A DNA stretch of 37,816 nt, from contig VGRQ01000004.1 of NCBI GenBank assembly GCA_016875315.1, positions 1 through 37,816 of the forward strand. The letters run 5' to 3'. A program made the position numbers and the translations under genes. This DNA comes from Deltaproteobacteria bacterium. GTDB lineage: Bacteria; Myxococcota_A; UBA796; SXON01. Every line of letters begins with the position of its first letter. The first letter of the stretch is position 1. This document shows positions 10,688 to 31,341 of the stretch, piece by piece. Under the pieces are notes generated by a model. That model was given only the letters and a program-made list of their open reading frames with translations, was not told the origin of the DNA and did no database searches.

Positions 10688-10764
10688 GCCCTTGTAGCTC
10701 AGCTGGACAGAGCCGGGGATTTCTAATCCCCAGGTCGCAGGTTCGATCCCTGCCAAGGGCGCCA
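10688..10764 (+). tRNA. tRNA-Arg (anticodon UCU)
   Basis: A full cloverleaf can be drawn. Acceptor GCCCTTG pairs with CAAGGGC; the D stem is GCTC/GAGC; the anticodon stem GGGGA/TCCCC encloses loop TTTCTAA with anticodon TCT; the T stem GCAGG/CCTGC encloses TTCGATC. The discriminator base is G and the CCA end is encoded. It reads AGA codons, which are rare in this GC-rich genome. The MopE-like gene starts 32 bp away on the other strand and the TPR gene follows 29 bp downstream. Confidence 0.98.
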
Positions 10765-11481: not shown

Positions 11482-11716
11482 GCGTCGGCAGCGGTCGCTG
11501 CTCGAATGCACAGCGTCGTGAGCAGTCGCTGCTTGAGTGCACACCGCGCGGCGGTCGCCTTCCCAGAGGCGCGCACCGGGTACGGGCGAATCTGCGTTTT
11601 CGCCAAGGCGAAGGAAGCGCGCCCCCCGGGGAAAGCGGCCGCGAGGCCTCTGCGTGTGCACTCAAGTGTTATCCGCTTACGACGATGTGCACTCAAGTGT
11701 CATCCGCTTACGACGA
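11482..11716. repeat. 235-bp inverted-repeat element made of 31-bp tandem units
   Basis: The right arm holds two 31-bp units in tandem (11655-11685 and 11686-11716), identical except for one T/C change. The left arm (11482-11512 and 11513-11543) holds two diverged copies in the opposite orientation, all ending in the conserved 12-mer CTTGAGTGCACA or its close variant CTCGAATGCACA. The 111 bp between the arms are also partly self-complementary and contain a TTCGCC-AA-GGCGAA hairpin (11599-11612). The whole can fold into one long stem. It has no open reading frame of its own. A MITE-like or REP-like element is the best guess. Confidence 0.75.
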
Positions 11717-28167: not shown

Positions 28168-29082
28168 CTACGGGTACTTCGTCTCGCCCAGGTCCGACAT
28201 GTCAACCACGTTGCCCGGGATGACACCCCACTCGCACTCGCCCACGCTGCCCTCGTCGCAGCCCCAGCAACTGATCTTGCCCGCAGTGGAGAGGGCGCAG
28301 AAGAAGCCGCCTCCGGCGCCAAGCGATCGGAAGGTGCCCGCGGGAGGCGAGAGCGAGGGCGTGTCCGATCCCCAACATTGCAGCGTGTCGTCTGACCGCA
28401 GCGCGCAGGCCGCGCCGCTCGCGACGGCGAGGGACTTGACACGCGCGAGCGCCGGGGGGAGGTTCACCGCTTCGTGGGCGCCCCAGCAACTTGGCTGCCC
28501 ACCGGGATCGAGCACGCAGGCAGCCCCGCCTCCTCCCGACACCATCACCCACGGCCCGGCGAGCGGCACAGTTGGCGGGTACGCGGCGTTGAATGCGCCG
28601 CTGCATGCCAGGAGGCCGCTGGGGTCGATTGTGCAGGTGTCGTTGGTGTACACCGCCAGCGTGGTAAACGGACCTTCGCCCGGCCGCGTCTCCCCGGCGT
28701 GGTCCGTCCCCCAGCACGTCACCTCGCCCTGCTCGTCCAGACCGCACCCGTGGTGCTCGCCGAGACCCACCTGCGTGAACTTCGTGCTGGGCGCGTCGGT
28801 CGCTCCGAACGCGGTGTTGCCCCAGCAGTACGGGACGCCCGCCGTCAGCGCGCAGGTGACGTAGGCGCTCAGCACCAGCGAGTCGAAGCCCTGCTCGGCA
28901 GGCAAGCCCAGCTGGGCGTAGTCCACGCCCGCGCGGAGGAACTGGCACTCGTAGCGGGGACCGTCGCGGGCGCAGGCGCCATAGCCGCCCACGTACAACG
29001 CGTCGTAGCCGCCGGAATCCGCCGGCTCCGCCGTCTCGCCCTCGCCATCGCAGGCGAGCAGGGGCACGAGGAGGAGGAACAC
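28168..29082 (-). CDS. RCC1-like beta-propeller lipoprotein
   Basis: A 304-residue lipoprotein with signal MFLLLVPLLAC (Cys11) and then repeats of the RCC1-like type common in Myxococcota surface proteins: about six units with C-x-L ... G-x-x-x-C-W-G, for example CALTAGVPYCWGN, CGLDEQGEVTCWG, CVLDPGGQPSCWG, CALRSDDTLQCWG and CALSTAGKISCWG. They probably form a disulfide-stabilised propeller. The function of such proteins is unknown; binding to other surface components is likely. It starts at a GTG 2 bp after the stop of the lipoprotein gene at 29085 and is probably expressed with it. Confidence 0.85.
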   Translation of the reverse strand: MFLLLVPLLACDGEGETAEPADSGGYDALYVGGYGACARDGPRYECQFLRAGVDYAQLGLPAEQGFDSLVLSAYVTCALTAGVPYCWGNTAFGATDAPSTKFTQVGLGEHHGCGLDEQGEVTCWGTDHAGETRPGEGPFTTLAVYTNDTCTIDPSGLLACSGAFNAAYPPTVPLAGPWVMVSGGGGAACVLDPGGQPSCWGAHEAVNLPPALARVKSLAVASGAACALRSDDTLQCWGSDTPSLSPPAGTFRSLGAGGGFFCALSTAGKISCWGCDEGSVGECEWGVIPGNVVDMSDLGETKYP

Positions 29083-29084
29083 GC

Positions 29085-30447
29085 CTACTCCGCCGGGATG
29101 CTGTAGGTCCCGGGCTGGCAGAGCTCCTCGCTGTCGAGTGTCAGCGCGTCGAGGCGGAGCGTCAAGGTGTCAGCCGATTGCGCGGTGATTGCGCCCCGCA
29201 GCTCGAGCGGCCCTCGCACCCACTCGAAGGTCTCCACGCCCTGCGCGGGCACCATGCTCGCCGACACGGCGAGCGCGGGCGCGCCGACAGGCTCGATCGT
29301 CAGGCGGTCGAGGCCGGGTTCCGGCCGCAGGACCACTTGCTGGATGGCATCGCACCCGAGCGCCGCGAGACTCACGCGATAGCCCGGCGGCGCGGGGAAC
29401 ACCGGCCCGCTCGCGTCGCAGGTCCAGTCCATCTCCACGCGGATGTAGGGAAAGAACGCCGGGTCGACCTCCTCGATCACGAAGGGCGACATGCCCTTCG
29501 GGCGACCGGAACCGAACCGCACCGTGCCGGTGATGGCCGTGGAGACGGCGCTGGCCTGGGCCACCGAGTCGGCGTGGGTGTAGGAGAAGGGCGACGTGCT
29601 GGTGATCACCCGCAACACGTTCGGCTCGGTCGACGCGCGGGTAACACGCGACACCCGCCCCCGGCGCGTGAGCACCCCGGAGCCCGAGAGCAACACCGGG
29701 GCCAGCGAGAAGGTGGCCTTGCCGTCATGGTCGCGATCCCGGCCGTAGGTGGGCACCAGCACGAACTCGCCCGTGCCCGGCGTGCACGTGGAGCTCTGCT
29801 CCACCGCGAGGCCGTCGGCGTTCTGCTTGTCGACGAGGTCGAGGCGCGTCGCCATGGGAACGAACTCGAAACAATCGTTCTCGGCGTTCTCGATGTGCGC
29901 GAGGTACTGCCCCGAGCAGGCCCCGGCGCTGCCGTAGCCGCAGTCGGTGCCCTGGTCGGTGTTGCACTGGTAGAGGCCGCACCACGACGTGCCCCCGCAC
30001 TCGGCGAAGCCGTTCTTCCAGGCCACGTTGCCCGAGGGCGCGTCGATCCAGCCCGACAGCGCGTGCTCCGTGACCGGGCAGGCACCGGTGCGCGACATGT
30101 ACGCGTCGACGCCGCTGCCGACCGGCACCTGAGCCTCGCCCGCCTCGTTGCGGAGGCCGAGCAACTCGCCGCCCACGACCTGGTTGCCCGAGAGGTCGGC
30201 GGAGCTGACGGTCGCGAACAGGCAGTTCCCGAAACTGCCCCCGTCGTCGTACATCGAGATCATCTCGCTGGCGTCCACGCTGTAGGCCACGCCGCCGGAA
30301 CCGCTCGGTGCGCAGGCGGTGTCGTGACAGTCTCGACCGCCCTTCGCGAAGTCGGGCGGGTCAACGGGGCAGCCCGCCCCCAGGAAGCCAGCGCCGAGCG
30401 AGAGTGCGGCTAGCGAGAGCGCGAGAACGCGAGAGCGCGAGAGCCAT
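29085..30447 (-). CDS. Lipoprotein, candidate phase-variable gene (currently out of frame)
   Basis: The continuous frame from 29085 up to about 30449 encodes a lipoprotein: leader VLALSLAALSLGAGFLGAGC, a Cys-rich start (GGRDCHDTACAPSGG), and about 430 residues with many Cys pairs (CGGTSWCGLYQCNTDQ) and a beta-rich C-terminal half. No family recognised. This frame has no ordinary start before the leader. The only start with a strong Shine-Dalgarno (GGAGGT, 4 nt away) is the ATG at 30447, one position out of frame; from there a 29-residue peptide is made. Four 8-bp repeats lie between. Two or five copies would join ATG and leader. Without switching, translation could start only at the GTG at 30290, giving 401 residues without a signal. 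A sequencing error is the main alternative. Confidence 0.7.
30413..30444. repeat. 8-bp tandem repeat x4 at a start codon
   Basis: Four adjoining copies of GCGAGAGC on the plus strand (second copy GCGAGAAC), directly after the ATG at 30447 when read on the minus strand as GCTCTCGC. A fifth, separated near-copy (GCGAGAGT) is at 30398-30405. A unit length not divisible by three means each gain or loss shifts the frame. Confidence 0.85.
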
Positions 30448-30451
30448 GATT

Positions 30452-30457
30452 ACCTCC
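30452..30457 (-). promoter_or_regulatory. Strong Shine-Dalgarno GGAGGT for the ATG at 30447
   Basis: On the minus strand GGAGGT is followed by AATC and the ATG. It is the best Shine-Dalgarno in the window and marks 30447 as a real start despite the frame break after it. Confidence 0.75.
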
Positions 30458-30617: not shown

Positions 30618-31100
30618 TCACGCGCCGTCGAGCGCCGGGCCCTGGACGGCGACGATGCCCGCCGCGTCGCGGGGCTGGCGCTCGGACCCGGTGGACTTGG
30701 CCCACTCCAGCTTGGCGAGCAGCACGTCCTCGGGCGACGCCACCCATACCTCGACGCCATCCACGACCGCCCGGCGCCGACGCTCGAACTCGGCGCGGCT
30801 GAACTCGCGACCTTTCCGGAGGATAACGTCGACGTTCCACCCGGTTTCGAGCTCGATGAGGTTGAACATAGATTGCCGCCGGGCAGCGTCGATGACCATG
30901 TCGATGTCGGCGTACCAACGCTCGGCGGGCAGCGCGCGACACAGACTCACCTGCGACATCCGGGAGGCCACGATGTCGATGTCCTGCGTGGAGCGCACCT
31001 CGCCCCAGGTCGAACTCGCCGCCGAGCCCGCGAGCATCCACGGGATCTCGAGGCTGTCGAGGGCGGTGCCCACCTGCTCCAGCGCCCGGCCGAGGCTCAC
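30618..31100 (-). CDS. MNT/AbiEii-type nucleotidyltransferase
   Basis: A 160-residue protein of the DNA polymerase beta-like nucleotidyltransferase superfamily. Visible motifs are WMLAGSAASSTWGEVRSTQD with the Gly-Ser signature, then DIDIV (metal-binding Asp pair), VDVILRKG as the third strand, and SPEDVLLAKLEWAK as the C-terminal helix typical of the AbiEii/MNT toxin group. Such enzymes modify tRNA or proteins in toxin-antitoxin systems. The GTG at 31100 overlaps the stop of the upstream small gene as GTGA, which supports both frames. The upstream partner is frameshifted, so the pair may be inactive or unbalanced. A 170-bp gap without a gene separates it from the lipoprotein at 30447. Confidence 0.8.
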   Translation of the reverse strand: MSLGRALEQVGTALDSLEIPWMLAGSAASSTWGEVRSTQDIDIVASRMSQVSLCRALPAERWYADIDMVIDAARRQSMFNLIELETGWNVDVILRKGREFSRAEFERRRRAVVDGVEVWVASPEDVLLAKLEWAKSTGSERQPRDAAGIVAVQGPALDGA

Positions 31101-31341
31101 GGCGTCGGATCCCTCTGGCACACCCTGTCCGCGGTCTCGTCGCCATGAAGGCGCCGAATCAGCGCGAGGGCGACCTGCCACGGGGTCCAGCCAGGGTACG
31201 CGGCGGCAATCTGGTCGCAATCGTGCGCATCAGCGACTCGGACAGTGCCGCCGCGGCGCGACTCCGGCCCTCGGGGCCCATGCGCCGCCACGCCACCGCC
31301 TGCACGCGGGCGGCGCGGGGATCGGTGCCGGCAGGGTCCAT
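31097..31341 (-). pseudogene. Frameshifted small partner gene of the nucleotidyltransferase
   Basis: The front is in the frame of the ATG at 31341 and reads VAWRRMGPEGRSRAAAALSE. The back is in another frame and reads YPGWTPWQVALALIRRLHGD, ending at 31097 in a GTGA overlap with the nucleotidyltransferase start. Joined, they give the usual layout of the small helical proteins encoded before MNT-type nucleotidyltransferases (a GPEGR-like helix, then a His/Tyr-Pro-x-hydrophobic helix ending in L-x-G-D/E). One base appears to be missing around 31190-31230. A real mutation, a sequencing error or (less likely) programmed shifting could explain it. Confidence 0.65.

Follow-up and report, generated by a model that had tools for sequence, protein, structure and literature searches.

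The locus described here lies on the minus strand of the window, i.e., the whole 37,816-nucleotide stretch of DNA that was analyzed, and its first gene encodes a Cys-rich lipoprotein of 453 codons, named P0001 (29085-30446). In minus-strand order, the 5' end of this gene reads ACCGGAGGTAATC-ATG-GCTCTCGC-GCTCTCGC-GTTCTCGC-GCTCTCGC-TAGCC..., in which the Shine-Dalgarno sequence GGAGGT (30452-30457) is followed by four spacer bases, an ATG start codon (30445-30447), and an array of four GCTCTCGC octamers with GTTCTCGC as the third copy (30413-30444), the proposed slippage tract. TRF recorded the array as period 8, 4.0 copies and 91% match. Translation from the ATG gives the peptide MALALSRSRALASRTLARRWLPGGGLPR, which ends at a TGA after 28 residues (30361-30447); the lipoprotein signal peptide, WLSRSRVLALSLAALSLGAGFLGAGC (30369-30446), is in another frame, offset by +1 from the ATG. 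It ends in the lipobox LGAGC, the Cys codon of which occupies 30371-30369, and this motif, along with a Cys that is common to the homologues, marks the product as a bacterial lipoprotein, i.e., a substrate of signal peptidase II. The lipoprotein frame is closed upstream by a TAA (30452-30450), made up of the final T of GGAGGT and the next two A's, and has no ATG, GTG or TTG ahead of the GTG at 30290, which is already past the lipobox; in its present state, P0001 is thus left with no in-frame start. These findings agree with the preliminary description of this DNA as to the GGAGGT, the four-nucleotide gap, the ATG at 30447, the four units at 30413-30444 and the leader in a different frame, all of which were confirmed in the sequence and by TRF, but the translated peptide is one residue shorter than the 29 residues given there. 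The body of P0001 is intact over its 453 codons, and its coding signal is normal and reaches up into the leader. No match to P0001 was found in Pfam, NCBIfam or PDB; its AlphaFold model was all-beta, with a mean pLDDT of only 51.6. Upstream of the locus is a gene for a DUF6036-like nucleotidyltransferase (30618-31220).

The array thus places a unit not divisible by 3 (8 bp, four times) between a start codon and an ORF body, which is the layout of an SSR-type translational locus. Any change in unit number toggles the frame, and the body beyond the array is intact. Since the leader is offset by +1, the rule proposed earlier, that the ATG joins the leader only when 8n-1 is divisible by 3, is correct; n=2 or n=5 restores the frame (ON), and the present n=4 does not (OFF).

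The second gene of the pair (28168-29082, minus strand) starts with a GTG 2 nt past the stop of the first and encodes another lipoprotein with RCC1-like repeats, as judged by its PF13540 match of 44.5 bits against a curated cut-off of 22. The gene pair is conserved: in those family members that were examined, the start of the following gene falls between 55 nt upstream and 6 nt downstream of the stop, and most of these genes again encode a lipoprotein. The partner is RCC1-like in the window and at loci L002, L003, L006 and L007 (PF13540), and several further partners look RCC1-like by eye. In a second subfamily (L005, L018, L015, L011, L016, L017), the partner is an unrelated lipoprotein that contains, by eye, an HExxH-type motif (e.g., LVHEAAH); the four of these that were tested had no Pfam match. 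In L016 (G028:C258), the likely start was also observed to be preceded by an array of a 13-bp unit, ACGGGGCCTCACC, in about 7-8 copies.

How often such an array would arise by chance was estimated in several ways. No second copy with one mismatch or less was found elsewhere in the 5.5-Mb genome. Only two period-8 arrays of equal score, the window array included, occurred in 1.12 Mb of this genome, and five simulated sequences of equal length (order-5 Markov) contained none. Synonymous recoding of the leader with the codon usage of the genome did not produce such an array in any of 20,000 trials, nor did recoding of gene starts in 19,600, which rules out the octamer as a by-product of codon bias. 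Overall, arrays of this kind occur about once per half megabase.

Close relatives of P0001 were absent from the GTDB contigs; the 11 homologues that could be aligned were mostly 24-33% identical to it (24-29% over the whole alignment). The lipobox Cys was invariant in all 12 aligned members (alignment A1), as were about 30 other positions. Profile search located the family in 11 of the 63 genomes of the order and in no other among the 379 genomes sampled from the phylum, and a further search with subset A2 retrieved no loci beyond those already found. Where family loci could be matched to named records, these were metagenome assemblies under the labels Myxococcota, Deltaproteobacteria or proteobacteria.

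Examination of the 5' ends revealed that six of the 12 aligned members have a long simple repeat immediately past the start, and that four of these six were OFF, as read from genomes that are all assemblies, many of low coverage, in which some poly-C lengths may be wrong by one. The OFF members are the window gene itself (8-bp x4), G008 (C14; frame counted from the TTG that is best positioned with respect to the Shine-Dalgarno), G047 (ATGACCCG-C12-GCAG) and G007 (ATGCATA-C8); the ON members are G028 (C9) and G015, with ATGGCT-(TCCTC)x4. A seventh member (G028c), which is not among the six with long repeats, has a heptamer of about 2.3 copies and is OFF. By comparison, all four members that lack a long repeat and have an ATG that can be assigned (G029, G028a, G047a, G015b) are ON, and in one (G018) there is no clear start. 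When in frame, the four poly-C members would have in common a short n-region of proline and then arginine. The same detector, applied to 1.12 Mb of the window's genome, found a start-proximal repeat in 13 of 980 genes; against this background, the six in 12 of the family correspond to a P of about 5e-9, or about 5e-4 if the four poly-C cases are counted as one origin, i.e., as three independent repeat types in all. Both the repeat and the frame state therefore differ between homologues, it being noted that these are distant homologues and not strains. The preliminary description would have been refuted by relatives with a fixed in-frame copy number, and the opposite was found: at the same place, homologues from other genera and families carry repeats of other kinds, and most are OFF. 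We conclude that the lipoprotein locus has apparently been conserved while its repeat turned over.

These results bear directly on the possibility that the gene was recently lost, i.e., that an ordinary frameshift mutation created a young pseudogene in which the octamers are incidental. The frame is indeed broken in the one sequence at hand, and the repeat is short and imperfect. Nonetheless, the remaining ORF is intact throughout, homologues with repeats at the same place are a mixture of ON and OFF while the repeat-free ones are uniformly ON, and the rarity of such arrays speaks against an incidental presence at this very spot. We therefore consider recent loss improbable, although it is the strongest of the alternatives.

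Less probable still is an error of assembly or sequencing, whereby the true sequence would be in frame and the gene always on. The host genome was assembled from a metagenome and is fragmented (881 contigs, 6% contamination), and one wrong base or unit would suffice. However, the deviant unit 3 limits the perfect stretch of the repeat to about 16-17 bp, which usual k-mers span; moreover, the other genes of the contig are intact. In the same assembly, poly-C/G tracts of 9 or more inside at least seven ordinary genes, the frames of which were read by eye, are all in frame, which is evidence against assembly error as a general cause. Homologues in independent assemblies show the same out-of-frame pattern, and an error here would leave unexplained why half of the family has repeats at this position.

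Lastly, it is very improbable that the gene is on as it stands through unusual translation, be it a programmed +1 frameshift at the repeat or non-standard initiation. A strong Shine-Dalgarno and ATG are indeed present with the leader in another frame; however, the shift required in the homologues is +1 in some and +2 in others and the sequences to be crossed are unrelated, some homologues need no shift at all, and the leader frame offers no ATG, GTG or TTG before the lipobox.

The lipoprotein gene is thus very probably a slipped-strand phase-variable (contingency) locus, a reading that the preliminary description had offered and that is supported by the start-proximal repeats, which differ among the homologues and are mostly out of frame. 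Distant homologues carry unstable repeats of other kinds at this position, and the most likely behavior of the gene is therefore random alternation between ON and OFF, as is known for surface genes of some pathogens. In the proposed mechanism, ribosomes would start at the ATG at 30447 behind the strong Shine-Dalgarno, and slipped-strand mispairing in the octamer array would add or remove 8-bp units between the start and the core of the signal peptide. Each unit would change the reading frame by -1, such that about one in three tract lengths would join the start to the lipoprotein frame. The four-unit state that was assembled would be OFF and yield the 28-residue peptide only, while the ON state would result from five units (MALALSRSRVLALSLAALSLGAGFLGAGC...) or from two. 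In the OFF state, expression of the RCC1-like lipoprotein would probably fall too, through translational coupling or polarity, and a joint switch of the two genes is plausible. The sequences themselves show the anatomy, the frames, the conserved gene pair and the repeats of differing unit at one place in the homologues, mostly out of frame, and from these we infer slippage, its reversibility, and the effect on the second gene. Slippage should be slower here than in the C12-C14 tracts, given the few units of the array and the deviation in the third; the shortness is no strong objection, however, because a four-unit pentamer at the hsdM of H. influenzae switches at a high rate (Zaleski 2005, reported in PMC2651432).

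Known systems offer a close parallel in architecture. In the gonococcal pilC1 and pilC2 genes, translation is turned ON and OFF by slippage of a poly-G tract in the region coding for the signal peptide (Jonsson et al. 1991; PMC13190605). Here too, a surface-protein gene has a repeat in its signal-peptide region in a translational ON/OFF arrangement, but the repeat is built of octamers (of poly-C or pentamers in homologues) and not of poly-G, the lipoprotein is unrelated to PilC, the host is an uncultured member of Myxococcota, and the switching is deduced. The contingency loci of H. influenzae comprise tetra-, penta-, hepta- and octanucleotide repeats, including the (GACGA)4 of hsdM, and its octamers range from 1 to 6 units and differ between strains (PMC2651432). 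Like the present locus, these are short arrays with units not divisible by 3 that shift a reading frame, and homologous genes are served by different repeat classes, although in H. influenzae this is seen in different strains. Unlike the octamers reported in H. influenzae, which are upstream or intergenic, that of the window lies between the start codon and the signal peptide. In the same phylum, the yellow/tan phase variation of Myxococcus xanthus is likewise a reversible heterogeneity of the population, but it is a global regulatory phenotype, unlike the window locus, and its description makes no mention of repeats or slippage (PMC3986340). Our literature search retrieved no report that phase variation in Myxococcota is driven by repeats, although this does not prove that none exists; among papers touching on both subjects, one treats repeat slippage for gonococcal pilC only and another just cites the M. 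xanthus work. Overall, the slippage mechanism is known, as in gonococcal pilC, while the lineage, the protein family and the apparent extent look undescribed.

The layout of Shine-Dalgarno, ATG, poly-C and signal peptide, often OFF, recurs in other secreted proteins of the order. In its 63 genomes, the pattern SD-ATG-N0-21-C9+ occurred 71 times, compared to 14 for the reversed pattern. Among the fetched cases with a clear frame, 8 signal-bearing bodies were ON and 13 OFF, compared to 12 ON and 3 OFF for the others (Fisher P=0.019), a statistic that was computed after the family had been seen and with a stricter signal-peptide filter chosen post hoc, and that is therefore supportive only; under a looser filter the difference was not significant (P=0.12). 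The proportion OFF among the signal-bearing proteins (62%) is close to the two-thirds expected of a free-running tract. A count of all poly-C runs of 11 or more in the relatives was uninformative, as overlapping matches inflate the counts.

Individual cases illustrate the recurrence. In the window's own genome, by eye, a C11 tract frameshifts the N-terminus of L074 (G000:C2:13139) and a C9 tract the Sec leader of L086 (G000:C125). L074 is a large lipoprotein in which the tract lies about 20 residues past the lipobox, with about 1238 codons downstream, and the frames of the leader and the body differ. A gene that by eye resembles the DUF6036-like nucleotidyltransferase of the window (L075, G000:C2) was observed upstream of a C11 tract elsewhere in this genome. 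L086 and L093 (G000:C202, at a contig end) have nearly identical starts (GAGGAGAGT.GTCCATGCGC.AGCTT..CCTGCATTTT) with C9 and C17, respectively; their bodies resemble by eye secreted proteins of the SpvB/RHS type, and the start of L210 (G010), with C12, is possibly related to theirs. Secreted proteins with MopE-type metal-binding motifs (L198-L204, in G008 and G005; PF11617 in L198) have an ATG and C9-C11 ahead of the signal peptide, and six of the seven copies are out of frame (L198-L200 and L202-L204), L201 being ON. The starts of L200 and L201 are paralogous and differ by one base in length just past the tract. In other Myxococcota lineages, lipoproteins or Sec proteins with an out-of-frame ATG and C9-C12 were also noticed (L176, L179, L193); as these are outside the order, the habit may be wider.

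Taken together, we favor, with some reserve, the reading that this order of uncultured, large-genome, high-GC Myxococcota has a lineage-wide phasome of secreted proteins and lipoproteins, in which start-proximal repeats are kept while their unit turns over. Its members would be the octamer/poly-C lipoprotein with its RCC1 partner, the MopE-motif proteins and the large secreted proteins, and possibly poly-G promoter spacers as well. Repeat-driven contingency loci have been described mainly from small-genome, host-adapted pathogens, and are usually taken to switch a surface antigen or receptor. If the reading is true, random surface switching would pay in large-genome relatives of myxobacteria also, possibly against phages, predators, prey or kin-recognition partners.

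As to the promoter spacers, poly-G tracts (G9-G12) were seen about 37-60 nt upstream of the start codons of L017 (G008:C112), L080 (G000:C48), L099 (G000:C247) and L089 (G000:C150), and two of them directly follow a TTGACA/TTGTCA-like hexamer; it is possible that these tracts are phase-variable promoter spacers. Elsewhere in the window, two different 31-bp tandem repeats of 2-2.5 copies (11482-11558 and 11655-11716) were observed about 700-900 bp beyond a tRNA-Arg gene (10688-10764).
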